DNA from: Mageeibacillus indolicus UPII9-5
GTDB lineage: Bacteria; Bacillota; Clostridia; Saccharofermentanales; Fastidiosipilaceae
NCBI RefSeq assembly: GCF_000025225.2
Contig: NC_013895.2
Span: forward strand, 620,001 to 684,000
Length of the DNA stretch: 64,000 nt
Direction of reading: 5' to 3'
The notes beneath the pieces were generated by a model. The model was not told where the DNA came from. It did no database searches and worked only from the letters and a program-made list of their open reading frames with translations. The position numbers and the translations under genes are program-made. The stretch's first letter is position 1; every line of letters starts with the position of its first letter. Positions 8,120-51,770 of the stretch are shown here, piece by piece.

Positions 8120-9001
8120 CTATGTCTGGCTCAAAATCATTGCTTCCAGCTTTCTCGCTGCCATACTAAGCGGTTGATCCTTACGCCTGATCAGGACCAA
8201 GCGGCGCATCGGAACTTTTTCTATCAGGTCGATTTGATGCACGCCTTCAGTTCCTTTTAAAAATTCCCGCGGTACAAAGCCGATACCCAAATCGGCTTTT
8301 ACCATTGGCAATATTTGGTCGGCGGTAAAGGCTTCAATATCCGGCTTGTATTTTAAATTGTGTTTAGCAAAAAAATCAGCGTAAAACTCAAATGATTTGG
8401 TATCTTGTCCTAGTGAAATTAAGGGATAACCTGTCAAGTCGGCCAAGTTTATGCGGCTGTCCAGCAGTGCTCCAAAATAAGACGAACAAACGGCTACTTC
8501 CTGCACATTTTTTACGGTTGTTTCAGTTAGCGATGCTGTTGGCACGGTTGGCGTAGTAACTACGGCCAAGTCGGCACTCCCGTCTTTCAAGGCCTCGATA
8601 GCTTGAGGTGTAGAATGATTACTGATTCGAATATGTATCCCTGGATATAGTAGACGATATTGCTTTATAAGTGGTAATAACAGGCAGTGCAAAGCTACTT
8701 CGCTGGCGGCAATGTAAATTTTGCCGTTTTGCAGATTACGATTTTCGGTCAATTCCTGTTCTCCGGCGTTGATATGGCGCATGGCGACACATAAGTGGTC
8801 ATACAGCTGCCGGCCTTCGGGCGTTAATTTCATTCCTCGGCGTGAACGCAAAAACAGCGGACAGCCAAGCTCCGATTCCAGTTTTTTTATTGTTCGAGTA
8901 AGATTGGGCTGGTTGCTTAGAAGAACTTCAGCAGCACGAGAAACATTGCCGTACTTAGCAACGTAATAAAAAATACGATAGTAGTCATAACTTATATACA
9001 T
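8120..9001 (-). CDS. LysR-family transcriptional regulator
   Basis: The N-terminal winged helix-turn-helix is clear (YYRIFYYVAKYGNVSRAAE, then LLSNQPNLTRTIKKLESELG, then FLRSRRGMKLTPEG). The rest (residues 90-293) has the two-lobed substrate-binding fold typical of LysR proteins, for example KIYIAASEVALHCLLLPLI. It is divergent from the degenerate aminotransferase gene with 204 bp between starts, the standard arrangement for a LysR regulator that controls its divergent neighbour. The coinducer is unknown. ATG 9001 is used; the ribosome binding site is weak. Confidence 0.9.
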   Translation of the reverse strand: MYISYDYYRIFYYVAKYGNVSRAAEVLLSNQPNLTRTIKKLESELGCPLFLRSRRGMKLTPEGRQLYDHLCVAMRHINAGEQELTENRNLQNGKIYIAASEVALHCLLLPLIKQYRLLYPGIHIRISNHSTPQAIEALKDGSADLAVVTTPTVPTASLTETTVKNVQEVAVCSSYFGALLDSRINLADLTGYPLISLGQDTKSFEFYADFFAKHNLKYKPDIEAFTADQILPMVKADLGIGFVPREFLKGTEGVHQIDLIEKVPMRRLVLIRRKDQPLSMAARKLEAMILSQT

Positions 9002-9065
9002 GCTTCTTACCTAACCTTTTGATTCAGTGTTGACTTAGTGTTTGTCTTGGTATGAATTTTATTAT

Positions 9066-9115
9066 ACATGTGAAATTGATATCGTGCATATGTCTAACAT
9101 GTATTTTACACATGT
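9066..9115. promoter_or_regulatory. Candidate LysR operator: repeated ACATGT palindromes
   Basis: The hexamer palindrome ACATGT occurs at 9066, 9097 and 9110 in the divergent intergenic region, with a further partial copy (CATATGT) near 9087. LysR regulators bind clustered, partly palindromic sites in such positions. Assignment is by position only. Confidence 0.4.
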
Positions 9116-9205
9116 ACTGGTCTGTATCATAATGTATGCAGTCTTGAAGATAAATGAACAATAGGTTCATACAGAATAAATTTAAATACTGTTGTTGGTG
9201 AGATA

Positions 9206-10495
9206 ATGGACTATTTGAGAGCAACTCAAACTGATTTGATCAAAGAGCGGGATACGGCGCGAGAACTTTTGGCGGAGATGGCCTCTGAAGGCTTGCAGGT
9301 CGATTTCTCCGTAATAAGACCGTCAACGGCTCAGCTTGATCTATCTTTGCCGATGCTTAACGTCATTGACAGCCACAGCGTACTTGATAGTGAAAACGGG
9401 CAAGATTGCCGCAATTACGGTAGCACAGATGGTATCCCGGAGGCGCGTCGCTTGATGGCTCATATGCTGGGAACTCATGTTGTACATACGATTGTCAGCG
9501 GTAACAGCGGCTGGAACCTTATTTATCAGGTTTTGTCGCATGCTATGCTAGACGGAGTGTGTGGCGGTAAACCGTGGAAAGATGTTGAGGGACGGCGTTT
9601 TATTTGCCCCGTTCCGGGCGCATTGAACCATTGGCGATTGGCCAAGCAGTTTGGATTTACTTTATTGACCGTTCCGATGCGGAGCGATGGACCGGATATG
9701 GATATGGTGGAAGAACTTATAAAAGACAGTCGGGTAAAGGGTATGTGGTGCACTCCTAAGTATCAAAATCCGACAGGAACAGTATACAGTTCAGCAGTTA
9801 TACGCCGTCTGGCTTCACTTAAACCGGCAGCCAAGGATTTCCGCCTATTTTGGGACAACGCGTATGCGGTGCATGATTTTGGCAAAAACGTCGCCACCAT
9901 ACCGGACATTATAGAAGAAAGCGAAAAAGCAGGAAATCCGGAAATAGTGTACGAATTTGGCACCACCGATTTAATCACTTTTCCCGGATCAGGGTTGGCG
10001 GCAGTGGCCGCCGGCTCGGCAAATTTGATTGATATCAGACATTTCGTTGAAATGGCGACAACCGGAGCCAACAAAATAAATCAGCTGCGCCATGTGCGTT
10101 TCCTGAAAGGAAGCTCTGGCTTAAACGCTCACATGAAGAAACATGCAGCAATTTTGCAGCCTAAGTTTAAACTGGTTGAAAACATTTTAGCTCGCGAGTT
10201 GGCGAGCGGCGGTTTGGCGAAATGGACTGTGCCGAAAGGCGGTTATGTTATTTTGTTGCAGACCATTGAAGGTACGGCGAAAAAGATTATTCAAACGTGC
10301 GCCGCCGCTGGAGTCAAACTACCGCTGGCCGGATCCGCCTACCCCAATTGCAATGACCTGACAGACAATCATATCAGCCTGTGTCCGGCGGCTGAAAACA
10401 TCGATAAAATTGGCAAAGCAACCAAAGTTATTGCCTATGCAATAAGATTAGTTGGAACCGAGGCAATTTTGGCTGCCAAGGCAGGAGGACGTTAA
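9206..10495 (+). CDS. Aspartate aminotransferase-like fold protein (group 1c / MocR-type) lacking catalytic residues
   Basis: The whole 429-aa protein follows the fold-type I aminotransferase family of Pfam PF12897. Landmarks kept are YGSTDGIPEAR (71-81), GNSGWNL (99-105), a VPM-xx-DGPDMD segment (156-166), PKYQNPTG (184-191) and WDNAYAVHDF (216-225). The PLP Schiff-base motif, usually S-T-S-K-I-T, reads T-T-D-L-I-T here (253-258), so the lysine is Leu256. The substrate-carboxylate Arg (usual I-R-I-A-P) is Ser391 in ISLCP, and the usual GYDRHF is GALNHW (138-143). The reading frame is intact. Normal transamination is therefore unlikely; a binding or regulatory role is inference. GGTGAG (9196-9201) precedes ATG 9206. 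The yoaK-like gene follows 1 nt after the stop. Confidence 0.8.
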   Translation: MDYLRATQTDLIKERDTARELLAEMASEGLQVDFSVIRPSTAQLDLSLPMLNVIDSHSVLDSENGQDCRNYGSTDGIPEARRLMAHMLGTHVVHTIVSGNSGWNLIYQVLSHAMLDGVCGGKPWKDVEGRRFICPVPGALNHWRLAKQFGFTLLTVPMRSDGPDMDMVEELIKDSRVKGMWCTPKYQNPTGTVYSSAVIRRLASLKPAAKDFRLFWDNAYAVHDFGKNVATIPDIIEESEKAGNPEIVYEFGTTDLITFPGSGLAAVAAGSANLIDIRHFVEMATTGANKINQLRHVRFLKGSSGLNAHMKKHAAILQPKFKLVENILARELASGGLAKWTVPKGGYVILLQTIEGTAKKIIQTCAAAGVKLPLAGSAYPNCNDLTDNHISLCPAAENIDKIGKATKVIAYAIRLVGTEAILAAKAGGR

Positions 10496-10496
10496 C

Positions 10497-11174
10497 ATGA
10501 AAATGCTTAAACCATTTGGCGGCCAGATGTCGGAAAGCTTTCTCACGGCGTTGTTCATTATTTTATCGGGCGGGTTTCAAGATGCGTATACGTACGTGTG
10601 TCGCAACGAAGTATTCGCCAACGCCCAAACTGGCAATATCGTTTTGCTGAGTACGGCGATTTTTAAAAATGATTGGACTACGTTTTGGCGATATTTAATA
10701 CCTGTACTTTCTTTCTTTATTGGCACGGCTGCAGCGGAATCAATACACATGCGGCTGAAACTGCACGAAAAGATACATTGGCGACAGCTTATTTTGCTTG
10801 GGGAGATCATTATTTTGTTGGGAGTCGGGTTCATTCCTGCTTCTGTGGAAATACCGGCTAATGCCTTAGTGTCGTTTGTGTGCGCTATGCAGGTGCAAAC
10901 TTTTCATAAAGTGCGCGGCCATGCTTACGCAAGTACAATGTGTATCGGCAATCTTCGCTCGGGCGTTGAGGCGTTATGCATTTATGCACGTTGCCGCGAG
11001 CGGGAAATATTGCTGAAGTCACTTACTTATTTTGCGGTAATTTTGGTTTTCGCTGTAGGAGCTGGGCTTGGCAGTGTACTTACGCAGGCCTTAGGCTGCC
11101 GGGCTATATGGATTTGCTGTGTTCTGCTTAGCATCAGTTTTGGGCTGATGTTTAAGCGTTGTGAATATAATTGA
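10497..11174 (+). CDS. YoaK-family (DUF1275) membrane protein
   Basis: The 225-aa protein has about six hydrophobic segments and the DUF1275 hallmarks: an N-terminal SGGFQDAYTYV and FANAQTGNIVLLS, and a central AMQVQTFHKVRG followed by YASTMCIGNLRSG. The family is widespread in bacteria. It is annotated as a possible small-molecule permease but has no proven substrate. ATG 10497 is preceded by AGGAGG (10483-10488). Its start lies 1 nt after the aminotransferase-like gene, so the two are translationally coupled and probably functionally linked. atpB starts 26 nt downstream without a visible terminator. Confidence 0.85.
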   Translation: MKMLKPFGGQMSESFLTALFIILSGGFQDAYTYVCRNEVFANAQTGNIVLLSTAIFKNDWTTFWRYLIPVLSFFIGTAAAESIHMRLKLHEKIHWRQLILLGEIIILLGVGFIPASVEIPANALVSFVCAMQVQTFHKVRGHAYASTMCIGNLRSGVEALCIYARCREREILLKSLTYFAVILVFAVGAGLGSVLTQALGCRAIWICCVLLSISFGLMFKRCEYN

Positions 11175-11200: not shown

Positions 11201-12013
11201 GTGGATAAAAGAAAACTTAAGCATTTTCTAATAGCTTGGTGTACCTTGGTAGTGATTGCTTTGGTGGTATCGCTTTTGTTGCGGCATAATCCGCGGACTG
11301 AGACAATCCAGATAGCCATGCGTGACGCCGTGCTACATGAAAAGAATAAAATTAATTTTTTGGGCTTGATTGCGGTTAATCCGTCATTCATTTCTGGCGT
11401 CATAATGACCGTGATTTTGTTGGTCCTGTCGGCGGTGTTACGTTTGACGGTTATTCGTAGAATGAAAGTTACGCCCGGGAAATTACAACTGTGTTTGGAG
11501 GGTGTTGTCGGTTATTTTTCTCATTTGGCCGAAAGCAACAGTCCGCATCGCAACAAATTTTTGGGCGCCTATGTATTTGGTGCCGGCGTATATATTTTTA
11601 CCGGGACATTGTTTGAACTGTTCGGTGTGCAAATGATTTCAACCGCCGGAAATCCCGTCAATCTTTCAGCTCCATTAGCCGATATCAACGGAGCGATCGC
11701 TCTCGGATGCTTTTCTTACTTAGTGATTATGTCGGGAGGCTTGGTCTCTAATGGAGTGAGAGGTGTGTTGCTGACACTTAAAGAATTTTCCCTGCCGATT
11801 TCACTCAGCTTCCGTTTGTTCGGAGCCTTGTTGAGTGGACTGCTGGTTACGGAATTAGTTTACTATTACCTTAGCCTGAGCTTTATTTTGCCGGTTGCAG
11901 TTGGCGTGATGTTCACCTTGATGCACGCTTTCATCCAAGCATATGTTTTGACCATGTTGACAGCGTTGTTTTATGGCGAAGTCAGCAAACCGCCGTTGAA
12001 AAAGCATACGTAA
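11201..12013 (+). CDS. atpB: F-type ATP synthase subunit a
   Basis: Subunit a forms the two proton half-channels next to the c-ring in the membrane. The protein (270 aa) has a cytoplasmic basic start, about six membrane spans, and the essential arginine in LSFRLFGALLSGLLV, followed by the C-terminal helix FTLMHAFIQAYVLTMLTALF. I chose GTG 11201 because AAAGGAG (11187-11193) is spaced 7 nt from it; TTG 11171 would overlap the preceding gene. No atpI gene precedes it. The cluster order is a, c, b, alpha, gamma, beta, epsilon, with delta missing as a separate gene. Confidence 0.9.
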   Translation: MDKRKLKHFLIAWCTLVVIALVVSLLLRHNPRTETIQIAMRDAVLHEKNKINFLGLIAVNPSFISGVIMTVILLVLSAVLRLTVIRRMKVTPGKLQLCLEGVVGYFSHLAESNSPHRNKFLGAYVFGAGVYIFTGTLFELFGVQMISTAGNPVNLSAPLADINGAIALGCFSYLVIMSGGLVSNGVRGVLLTLKEFSLPISLSFRLFGALLSGLLVTELVYYYLSLSFILPVAVGVMFTLMHAFIQAYVLTMLTALFYGEVSKPPLKKHT

Positions 12014-12086
12014 CAGCAAAAATGTAGAGGGTAAACAATACGGATAATGCGATACGCAGATTAAATTTTAATTTTTGGAGGAAATT

Positions 12087-12467
12087 ATGAAAAACATGAC
12101 GCGCAAAATTATAGTGATGAGCATCTTGATGCTGGTTTTGGGATCTTTAGGCGGCCTGTCGGTTTATGCCGTTTCAAATAGTGGGAATAAGGCCGACGCC
12201 GCTCCTGCTGCACAGAATATAACTGCTACTCAGGCGGCGAACGCCGGTGGAAATAAAGCTTTGGCCGCAGGTATTTGCGTAGGTTTAGCGGCAGCCGGTG
12301 GTGGTATCGGCATGGGCCTTTCAGTTGGTAAATCAACCGAAGCTATTTCACGTCAGCCAGAAGCGCTTAATAATATTCGTACCACACTTATGCTCGGATT
12401 GGTGTTCATAGAAACGGCAATTATCTATGGCTTAATCGTGGCAATATTGGTAATATTCGTGCTTTAA
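12087..12467 (+). CDS. atpE: F-type ATP synthase subunit c with N-terminal extension
   Basis: The last 70 residues form the normal c-ring hairpin: a Gly/Ala-rich first helix (AAGICVGLAAAGGGIGMGL), the polar loop with SRQPEA, and a second helix carrying the ion-binding Glu in FIETAIIYGL. The glutamine used by sodium-type c subunits in helix 1 appears to be Met here, so proton coupling is more likely; this is an alignment by eye. Unusually, the protein is 126 aa because it begins with a basic residue cluster, a hydrophobic segment (about 9-26) and an Ala/Asn-rich linker. This may be a signal peptide removed after insertion. TTGGAGG (12075-12081) precedes ATG 12087. Confidence 0.85.
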   Translation: MKNMTRKIIVMSILMLVLGSLGGLSVYAVSNSGNKADAAPAAQNITATQAANAGGNKALAAGICVGLAAAGGGIGMGLSVGKSTEAISRQPEALNNIRTTLMLGLVFIETAIIYGLIVAILVIFVL

Positions 12468-12479
12468 GGGGGGACTCCT

Positions 12480-12965
12480 ATGGGTGTACCGTTAAACATA
12501 GATTGGCAGCAAATACTTTTACACTTGTTCAATTTCTTCATTCTTGCCGGCGGCCTTTATATCTTGCTATATAAACCGATAAAGCAATATATGTCGGAAC
12601 GGCAAAAGCATTTTGCTGATATTGATGCCGCGGCACAAGAAAAGCTGCAGGCGGCTGAGGCACAAAAACAACAATATGCCGACCGCATGAAAGATGTTGA
12701 GAAAGAAATCAGCGCCATGAAAAATGAGGCGATGACGGCGGCAAAGAAAGCGGCCGCGGAAGAAATAGCGGCGGCAAAAGCGGAACGATTGAATATCATT
12801 GAGCAGGCCAAGTCGGAAGCGGAGCGGGAAAAAGCGAAGATTATTGCTGGAGCCGCTACAGAAATTGAAAACATGGTGAGCGAGGCGATTGATAAAGTTT
12901 TGGTAAGCGCGAAAGCTGATCCGTTGGACGATTTCCTGAACAAAGTGGAACGGGGGCGTGATTAA
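12480..12965 (+). CDS. atpF: F-type ATP synthase subunit b
   Basis: Subunit b is the peripheral stalk that holds F1 against rotation. It has one N-terminal membrane helix ([19 protein letters not shown]) and then a long charged, alanine-rich coiled coil to the C-terminus (161 aa). The C-terminal end would normally bind the delta subunit. Here the next gene carries a delta-like domain on alpha, and the stop of atpF overlaps its ATG by one base (12965). The ribosome binding site is an AAGGGGGG run just upstream of ATG 12480. Confidence 0.9.
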
Positions 12966-14840
12966 TGGCGGAACATGAAATCCGTAAAATTGAACTGGAA
13001 GCGTATTTGTACAGCGCGACTCCTCCTACTGCCCAGCAAAAGGAACGTTTAATCGCTTATTTATCGCAAAAATATCAAAAGAATGTGGCTTTGGTCTGGC
13101 GGGAAGATAAGACAGTAAAAGATGGACTGCGCATTGAACTCGGCACGGCCGTTTACAGATGGAACTTGGATGAGATTTACGATTGGACGCCGGCCGGTAA
13201 AGGACAGCAACTGAAAGAAAAGATCACTGCTGCAATCAATGCAAGCCTCAAGCAAAAAGCGGAGGACGCATCGGAAAAAGCCGCCCGAGAAAAAAATATT
13301 GTGCCTTTGGTTAAGCAGGCACTGAACGACTTTACGCCTGTCCCAGGTGGCGATGAAGTCGGTACGGTGCAAGAAGTCGGTGATGGAATAGCTATTATCA
13401 GCGGCTTGAGCATGGCAGCGTACGGTGAGATCGTGTCGTTCAATTCTGGCATTAAGGGTATGATACTTGATCTGCGAGAAAACCAAATCGGTTGTGTAAT
13501 TTTCGGTGATGAAAGTGAAATTACTGAAGGCAGCATTGTTAAGCGTACCGGTAAAACAGCCGGTATCCCGGTTGGCGAAGGCTTTTTGGGCCGGGTAGTC
13601 AACGCATTGGGCGAGCCTGTCGATGACGCCGGTGACATTTGTGCCGTCGACTATTACCCGATTGAGAATCCTGCCCCGGGCATTATCCAACGGCAACCGG
13701 TCAACCGTCCTATGGAAACTGGCCTTTTGGCCATTGATTCCATGTTCCCTATAGGCTGCGGGCAGCGGGAACTTATCATAGGCGATCGACAAACCGGTAA
13801 GACGGCAATTGCCCTGGATACGATCCTAAACCAAAAGGGTAAGGACATTGTCTGTATTTATGTCGCCATTGGACAGAAGGCATCATCCGTGGCACAGTTG
13901 GTCGAAACCTTGCGGCAACATGATGCACTGAGCTATACAATTGTCGTTAATGCGACAGCTGGTGAGTCAGCGACTCTGCAATACATTGCTCCGTACTCCG
14001 GCTGTGCGCTGGGCGAATATTTCATGCATAAAGGCCGTAATGTTCTTATTGTTTACGATGATTTGTCCAAACATGCAATTGCTTATCGTACTTTGAGCCT
14101 TTTGCTGGAAAGGTCCCCTGGACGTGAAGCTTATCCTGGCGATGTATTTTATTTGCACTCCCGTTTGTTGGAACGTTCAGCCAACTTAGCCCCGGAATAC
14201 GGTGGCGGCAGCATGACTGCATTACCGATTGTCGAGACGCAGGCTGGCGATGTTTCCGCTTACATACCGACAAACATAATTTCAATTACTGATGGACAGA
14301 TATTCCTCGAAAGTGATCTGTTCCACTCAGGACAAAGACCGGCAGTTAACGTTGGACTTTCTGTATCGCGGGTAGGCGGTGCGGCACAAACCAAAGCAAT
14401 GAAAAAAGCGGCTGGGGCCATCCGGTTGGATTTAGCGCAGTACCGTGAAATGGAAGTTTTTATGCAATTTTCCAGTGACTTGGATGAAACTACCAAACGT
14501 CAATTGCGCTATGGTCAAGGTTTGATGCGCCTGCTGCGGCAAAATCAGTACAAACCATATAAACAGCATGAGCAAGTCGTCTTGCTTACAGCAGCTTTGA
14601 ATAAAGTCTTTATTGATCTGGATGTGGATGATATACCGGTGGCAAGTCAACGGGTGCTGCAGGCGGCGGATCTTGAGTTGGCAGATCTATGCCACAAAAT
14701 AGACCGTGACGGCATTTGCGAGCCGGAAGATTTTGAAAAGATCTTGACTCTTTCGCGTCGAGTGGTCGCGGAAATAGTGCAGAATAAAACTGCCGAGTCG
14801 GAACCGGCAATTGCGTCTCTTATGAAAGGTGAGATTAAAG

Positions 14841-14854
<14 letters not shown>
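12965..14854 (+). CDS. atpA: ATP synthase subunit alpha fused to a delta-type C-terminal domain
   Basis: Residues from about 110 to 629 are a normal alpha subunit: [13 protein letters not shown], Walker A GDRQTGKT (283-290), [20 protein letters not shown] and the arginine-finger region [14 protein letters not shown]. Alpha contributes regulatory nucleotide sites to F1. The first about 105 residues are extra. Residues 19-75 ([19 protein letters not shown], then [10 protein letters not shown], then [20 protein letters not shown]) match the C-terminal domain of subunit delta (AtpH), which normally binds subunit b. A charged Ala/Lys linker (80-109) joins both. The six-helix N-terminal domain of delta, which normally grips the alpha N-terminus, is not encoded anywhere in the cluster. 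A covalent fusion could replace that contact. The start overlaps the atpF stop. Confidence 0.85.
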
Positions 14855-35257: not shown

Positions 35258-35274
35258 ATGCTATCTTAGTTACG

Positions 35275-35458
35275 ATATGTTGATGAAGACAAGTAGGTTT
35301 TGCCCGACCGGTTACAGAGAGATGACGGTGCTGTGAGTCATTACCGGATCAAAGCTGAATTTCACTTCGGAGTATCAATATATGCGATGAGCGCCGGCTT
35401 AAGCCGGAACTCGGGTGGTACCGCGGTAAATCCGTCCCGAACAGGGATGGTTTTTTTA
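35275..35458 (+). promoter_or_regulatory. T-box leader (Phe-specific) of pheST
   Basis: Stem I features AGAGAGATGACGGTGCTGTGAG are present, and a likely specifier TTC (Phe) occurs in GCTGAATTTCACTTC. The T-box core GGGTGGTACCGCGG is at 35413-35426. A terminator hairpin CCGTCCC/GGGATGG (35432-35450) with T7 competes with the antiterminator. Uncharged tRNA-Phe would switch on pheS-pheT. The 5' boundary is approximate. Confidence 0.93.
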
Positions 35459-51270: not shown

Positions 51271-51770
51271 ACTTCCTCCTAAAAAATAGAATTCAATTCA
51301 CATGAATCTCAGCATCATTGAGAGTATCCGACAATTAAGAAGTGACCGCCGCAACTGACAGACGGTACCGCAGAATATCTCATAGTCTAAGATTAGGTCT
51401 TAGGTAGAAACGCCTTGCCGAATTCAAGGTTTATATGAGCTTCCATTCCAACTGTGAATAGGCCAACATTATAACTCTTTTTGCTCGGAATGTATATCGC
51501 TGATTATGCCATAAATATCAGGCGAAATATCAATAGACGATATCTGTAGAAAAAAAGGATGCGGCGATATCGTTTGATTGCCCTAAAGTTAACTTGAAAG
51601 CATTTAACTTGACGAATGAAACTGCGCTTTGCACATAAATTAAACTACGTTTAACTGTAAAATAGTGCAAATTGTCGGAACTTTTTTGACTAAGAGAAAT
51701 CTTTGGCGTATTATTGAAAAAGGACTCGATTGAGGGATCCGATCCAAAATATTCAAGGAGGACGTTGAGT
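51271..51770. other. Divergent intergenic region pbuX / peptide receptor
   Basis: It contains the purine riboswitch (51379-51439). Between the riboswitch and pbuX lies a GC-rich segment likely to hold its expression platform. The rest (51440-51770) is AT-rich and should carry the promoters of both operons; TTGACG near 51610 is one candidate but not distinct. Confidence 0.5.
51379..51439 (-). promoter_or_regulatory. Purine (guanine-class) riboswitch of pbuX-xpt
   Basis: On the minus strand the aptamer begins CTCATATAA and ends GACTATGAG, closing P1. P2 (CCTTG/CAAGG) and P3 (CTAAGA/TCTTAG) and the junction TTTCTACC are present. The C in GACTATG is the specificity base that selects guanine, hypoxanthine or xanthine over adenine. 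It should reduce expression when these purines are abundant. Confidence 0.95.

Follow-up and report, generated by a model that had tools for sequence, protein, structure and literature searches.

The window, by which we mean the whole 64,000-nucleotide stretch of the Mageeibacillus indolicus UPII9-5 genome analyzed here (G+C content 43.7%), contains an open reading frame for an aspartate aminotransferase-like protein that runs from ATG to TAA through 429 codons with zero internal stops and lies between a divergent gene for a LysR-family regulator and the genes for the YoaK membrane protein and ATP synthase (Table 1). The protein matches PF12897 over almost the complete profile (positions 4-416 of 421; E = 1.1e-121; 407 bits against a cut-off of 27) and also scores 466 bits, with a cut-off of 435, against the equivalog-level NCBIfam model NF053594, 'aspartate aminotransferase type Ic'. 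Its codon use is ordinary, ranking 28th of 37 from the low end among the window ORFs of at least 200 aa. The whole-length family match, the intact frame and the normal-looking codons that a first-pass annotation of this DNA had described are all borne out by these results. A profile search of the whole 1,809,746-base genome recovered a single PF12897 protein, the one in the window, and profile searching detected no DNA-binding domain in its 429 residues. The AlphaFold2 model, built with 36 homologues, is confident (pLDDT 91.6, pTM 0.89), and the nearest solved structures are type Ic aspartate aminotransferases with TM scores of about 0.95, the best being 5hxx, 5iwq, 3ppl and 6u7a. Such confidence is to be expected of any recent derivative, and the model says only that the fold can accommodate this sequence.

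Table 1. Features of the LysR-aminotransferase-yoaK-atp locus, with positions in the window
Feature	Positions	Strand	Basis or remark
LysR-family regulator, divergent, 293 aa, intact	8120..9001	-	ORF and profile match
Candidate LysR operator, inverted repeat TACATGTGAAA ... TTACACATGTA	9065..9116	.	sequence repeat
Promoter-like TTTACA-17-CATAAT	9105..9133	+	promoter scan
Aspartate aminotransferase-like ORF, type Ic / PF12897, 429 aa, pocket predicted dead	9206..10495	+	ORF call, profile match, alignment
Val-Ile for Arg-Gly (codons 36-37)	9311..9316	+	alignment
Ala-Leu-Asn-His-Trp for Tyr-Asp-Arg-His-Phe (codons 139-143)	9620..9634	+	alignment
Asp-Asn-Ala-Tyr motif retained (codons 217-220)	9854..9865	+	alignment
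Thr-Thr-Asp-Leu for Ser-Thr-Ser-Lys (codons 253-256)	9962..9973	+	Schiff-base Lys lost
Leu256 for Schiff-base Lys (codon TTA)	9971..9973	+	alignment
Ser391 for conserved Arg (codon 391, AGC)	10376..10378	+	alignment
AGGAGG, Shine-Dalgarno-like, for yoaK, within last aminotransferase codons	10483..10488	+	by eye
yoaK, DUF1275 (PF06912) protein, intact	10497..11174	+	profile match
atp genes (a, c, b and alpha chains)	11201..14854	+	start 26 nt after yoaK

The stop codon of the aminotransferase-like gene (10493-10495) and the start codon of yoaK (10497-10499) are separated by one base. The interval from yoaK to the a-chain gene of ATP synthase contains neither a terminator-like site nor a promoter-like site on the + strand; the region's two terminator-like sites both lie inside yoaK, fewer than the 5.3 seen in shuffled sequences. 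The promoter-like sequence ahead of the aminotransferase gene comes from a scan that yielded 5 promoter-like sites in the region, compared with 6.8 expected from shuffles, and a similar sequence, TTTACA-17-TATAAT, occurs upstream of the LysR genes of two other genomes, G313 and G551 (identified by eye in G551). Together with the divergent arrangement, this similarity makes the previously proposed control of the aminotransferase gene by LysR plausible. ACATGT, an element of the candidate LysR operator, is missing upstream of the four other LysR orthologues inspected.

Two further observations concern other parts of the window. The ATP synthase alpha chain (12965-14854) is 629 aa long and starts 2 bases after the last translated b-chain codon (12962). 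Its N-terminal region gives a match to no more than the end of the delta/OSCP profile (positions 102-157), at 22.6 bits with a cut-off of 22.3, so that a delta-alpha fusion is possible. A T-box leader (35271-35442) and a purine riboswitch (51363-51458) were matched above the gathering score.

Homologues and gene neighborhoods

Orthologues were sought in overlapping sets of 12 genomes of the M. indolicus family, 188 of its order, 391 of its class and 398 of its phylum, as well as in 51 genomes of the order of G335 and 95 of the order of G551; the search of genome contigs covers the best 80 of at least 582 relatives. The closest homologue, with 50% identity, is found in G335 (locus L119), a genome of the same class and another order. 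Among the matches listed, no other orthologue exceeds 420 bits, the next best score being 419 bits and the identity of the next best homologue 47%. Gaps in the alignment of the window protein with the G335 orthologue amount to merely 1, 1 and 3 residues, and there is no frameshift.

The gene order in G335 is that of the window, with a divergent LysR gene (51% identity), the aminotransferase gene and yoaK (45%), making it the one other genome in which the same YoaK neighbor recurs. The state of the two downstream genes is reversed, however: the G335 aminotransferase is intact, with all 14 of the pocket residues defined below, whereas the yoaK behind it (L119:844-1431) is open in no frame. The G335 gene, intact in the same gene order, thus provides a natural before-and-after pair for experiments. 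None of the remaining 11 genomes in the M. indolicus family yielded a copy above 40% identity; in the family of G335, which counts 38 genomes, G335 alone has such a copy (another 36 have matches of at most 47 bits); and viral contigs gave no match. The aminotransferase gene thus occurs sporadically and has probably been moved horizontally.

From the shared order, co-inheritance of a LysR-aminotransferase-yoaK cassette would be expected, but it is not simply backed by the LysR tree, into which 10 of the 14 LysR loci were entered (L189-L192 being left out) and which carries no support values. The LysR of G335 is not the nearest relative of the window's LysR, whose affinity is greater with the regulators of G313 (66% identity) and G551 (63%), and these two LysR genes have no aminotransferase or yoaK alongside. 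In G313, LysR directly adjoins the atp genes, an arrangement like that of the window minus aminotransferase and yoaK, and the interval between LysR and the atp operon contains no detectable relics of either gene (best E-values of 0.19 for yoaK and 0.51 for the aminotransferase). Separately, the presence of a LysR-type regulator (66% identity) divergently beside atp genes in two distant genomes (window 8120-9001 and L193:3352-4840) suggests an old link between this regulator and ATP synthase.

Loss and retention of active-site residues

The full alignment comprises 152 homologue rows (150 distinct), namely those nearest to the query with fetched loci, which represent a part of the family. The Schiff-base lysine at position 256 and the conserved Arg391, presumably the alpha-carboxylate arginine, are present in 152/152 of these rows and in all four further loci that bring the residue survey to 156 homologues; no listed match beyond these exceeds 47% identity, and a first survey had found both residues in 145 of 145 other loci. 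The substitutions of the window protein recur in none of these 156 homologues. The arginines at positions 36, 141 and 391, each invariant across the 152 rows, are replaced by valine, asparagine and serine, respectively, the equally invariant Tyr139 is replaced by alanine, and Ser102 of the homologues is replaced as well; we take Tyr139 and Ser102 to lie on the ring side and the phosphate side of the cofactor. Overall, the pocket has lost three arginines, one lysine and one aspartate (Asp140) and gained an aspartate at position 255, and the replacements at the lysine, the three arginines and Tyr139 are mostly small or hydrophobic residues. Tyr71, Asn188, Asp217 and Tyr220, which we assume to be the cofactor-holding residues of fold type I enzymes, are retained, as in 152/152 homologues, and so is the complete DNAY motif (217-220), to which we ascribe a role at the cofactor ring. 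The pocket segments contain no new lysine, those specific to the query being located solely at positions 125, 147, 227 and 401. Hence, the reading of Leu256 for lysine, Ser391 for arginine and GALNHW (residues 138-143) given by the first-pass annotation stands against 152 homologues.

A published active site is available for Rv3722c (PDB 6U78, 6U7A, 5C6U), which is likewise a full-length match to PF12897 and NF053594 and which the predicted fold of the window protein resembles with TM scores of 0.93-0.96. The ligand-binding account in PMC7181641 names Arg36, Asp140, Arg141, Lys257, Tyr69* and Ile287*, where Arg36 is a mobile arginine that moves in to the ligand, Asp140 pairs with Arg36, Arg141 binds the side-chain carboxylate, and Tyr69* and Ile287* are ligand contacts from the second monomer. 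In the alignment with 6u78, the counterparts of these residues are Val36, Leu140, Asn141, Leu256, Tyr71 and Thr286, respectively, so that 5 of the 6 sites are changed (p = 0.003, testing only the sites named in that account). The window protein thus shares with Rv3722c the Tyr69* counterpart and the DNAY motif, and differs in the counterparts of Lys257, Arg36, Asp140, Arg141 and Ile287* and in the conserved Arg391. With the replacements of Arg36, Asp140, Arg141, Ile287* and Tyr139, the loss is wider than had initially been described.

As judged from the sequence, the loss of transamination by the known mechanism is well supported. Automatic annotation would nevertheless label the product an aspartate aminotransferase at the equivalog level (NF053594), and metabolic models would consequently credit M. 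indolicus with an enzyme that is apparently absent from it. A PLP- or PMP-dependent enzyme whose chemistry has changed so as to be independent of the lysine, as in the ColD dehydratase with a histidine in place of the lysine, seems to us scarcely probable: Asp217, Tyr220, Asn188 and Tyr71 are all kept, as this explanation would predict, but the replacement is leucine rather than histidine or another base, the pocket segments have acquired no lysine elsewhere, and both Tyr139 and Ser102 have also been lost.

Pattern of change: pocket and scaffold

We compared the pocket with the rest of the protein using 88 near-invariant columns, defined as those in which at least 97% of the homologues have one residue. 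Of these 88 sites, 22 are changed in the window protein and 2 in the G335 orthologue (Y194F and P397A, both outside the pocket list), the homologues having a median of 0 and a maximum of 11. When the sites were divided by a 14-site pocket list, consisting of 6 sites from PMC7181641 and 8 general aspartate aminotransferase contacts and drawn up with knowledge of the changed sites, 10 of the 14 pocket sites were changed compared with 12 of the 74 others (p = 7.8e-5). Outside the pocket, the most divergent lysine-bearing homologues deviate at 11/76, 11/76, 9/76 and 8/75 sites (each scored with itself left out), values that the window protein about equals and slightly exceeds. S255 and T373 are probably near the pocket as well, yet fall outside the 14-site list. 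Pocket deviation is absent in 148 of the 152 homologues, and the other four show G37C, I286V, I286L, or S102T together with I286L; two of the homologues most divergent outside the pocket carry conservative pocket changes. The longest unchanged stretch in the window protein comprises 27 near-invariant sites between residues 150 and 243 (permutation p = 0.0014), and the 22 changes cluster (close pairs, p = 0.0095), both tests having been chosen after the change list was seen.

Change is not confined to the pocket. At sites of middling conservation, the window protein is altered at 13/37 and 22/60, compared with 1/25 and 6/44 for the G335 orthologue, and its branch of 0.89 substitutions per site is about three times longer than the 0.30 of this sister (clade support 0.992). 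The longer branch and the more frequent change at middling sites point to a general relaxation in addition to the pocket-specific loss. In a neutral simulation, the G335 gene received random point mutations, with no indels, and each run ended once 22 near-invariant residues were altered. Reaching this point took a median of 163 substitutions, and only 4 of 2000 runs were then free of stop codons. The rarity of stop-free runs, together with the ordinary codon use, makes it likely that selection acted on the frame while at least some of the loss took place. Such selection could have acted without regard to the protein itself, given that the yoaK start, its Shine-Dalgarno-like sequence and the atp genes lie right downstream.

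This consideration underlies the main alternative, a possibility that we rate as lesser but substantial: the gene might be decaying and without a job, having lost catalysis first and kept its frame because stops or frameshifts would hurt the expression of yoaK and atp. The single base between stop and start, the ribosome-binding-like sequence of yoaK inside aminotransferase codons and the 26 nt from yoaK to the a-chain gene, free of terminator-like sites and of promoter-like sites on the + strand, fit this explanation, as do the three-fold longer branch, the raised change at sites of medium conservation and the existence of an intact orthologue in G335. However, selection for the frame alone predicts an even spread of changes, whereas the changes here are concentrated in the pocket and leave the 27 core sites untouched. 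Moreover, the coupling of transcription to translation is considered loose in Firmicutes, which weakens the argument from polarity.

The concentration of the losses in the pocket, with the frame and the core block kept, favors a pseudoenzyme over random decay. We therefore think it probable, by a narrow measure, that the gene encodes a fold-retaining pseudoenzyme derived from a type Ic aspartate aminotransferase, with a non-catalytic role based on the fold, and the dimer is probably retained. The 'preserved pseudoenzyme' of the first-pass annotation is accordingly supported in part, by the pocket-concentrated loss and the kept frame and core; its preservation would be no more than a possibility, given the three-fold acceleration of the branch and the lack of its substitutions in all 156 homologues. 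The same annotation had taken orthologues that possess the residues as a sign of mere decay; this is in part what we see, in that the only close orthologue, that of G335, has all of them.

Candidate roles and known parallels

The pseudoenzyme would descend, through loss of the pocket, from a horizontally carried and active aminotransferase like that of G335, and with its present substitutions it is known from one genome only among the homologues examined. Transcription from a divergent promoter under LysR control would yield it first, on a transcript that continues into yoaK and perhaps into atp. The protein should form no internal aldimine and bind no dicarboxylic amino acids, and it may act, if at all, through non-covalent ligand binding or protein contact.

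As a more specific proposal, which we consider unlikely but worth stating, the lysine-less fold could serve as a non-covalent sensor: its partly hydrophobic pocket would bind free PLP or another aromatic metabolite, and binding would be relayed to YoaK and the downstream ATP synthase operon. Such a role would suit the retention of the cofactor-ring residues and the place of the gene as the first behind a putatively LysR-controlled promoter. The aminotransferase fold has been reused for ligand sensing in the MocR/GabR/PdxR regulators, and GabR appears in the fold search of the window model with a TM score of about 0.65. Going by its PDB titles, GabR is a PLP-dependent activator, which distinguishes it from the window protein, where the DNA-binding domain was not found.

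The earlier suggestion of a dedicated partner or sensor for the YoaK membrane protein appears very improbable. Its basis is adjacency, with the two genes one base apart and the order repeated in G335, but the intact aminotransferase of G335 is accompanied by a broken yoaK, and LysR-YoaK pairs occur in G475 and G425 without an adjacent aminotransferase. Thus, the recurrence of the neighbor stands, and the partnership drawn from it is weak.

Because active sites are shared between the subunits of fold type I enzymes, the window protein could instead pair, as a regulatory or structural subunit of a mixed dimer, with some active aminotransferase, an arrangement that we also judge improbable, if slightly less so. 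LCB1/SPTLC1 (PMC3794620) provides a precedent, being a subunit of serine palmitoyltransferase that, as a PLP-enzyme homologue without the PLP lysine, resembles the window protein and forms its dimer with LCB2. Tyr71, the counterpart of the second-monomer contact Tyr69* in the Rv3722c account, is retained, as would be expected of a mixed dimer, but the other such contact, Ile287*, corresponds to Thr286. Unlike LCB1, which has a lysine-bearing partner from its family, the window protein is the sole PF12897 protein of the whole genome, so that no lysine-bearing family partner was found there, and the seven that were scanned of the nine other aminotransferase-fold proteins in the genome fit other families.

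Lysine-less relatives of PLP enzymes are already known, LCB1 (PMC3794620) being one and Rv3778c (PMC12910592) another. The latter, a cysteine-desulfurase-like protein without the PLP lysine that its source calls expressed and noncatalytic, is, like the window protein, a bacterial lysine-less PLP-enzyme homologue; the two belong to different families and are likened by the loss of the lysine alone. None of the three open-licence papers found to name PF12897 describes an inactive member, as judged by titles and the beginnings of abstracts. If the window protein is used by the cell, it would be the first lysine-less PF12897 member found, within the open-licence literature searched, and a clear case of a pocket that was emptied while the scaffold was kept.
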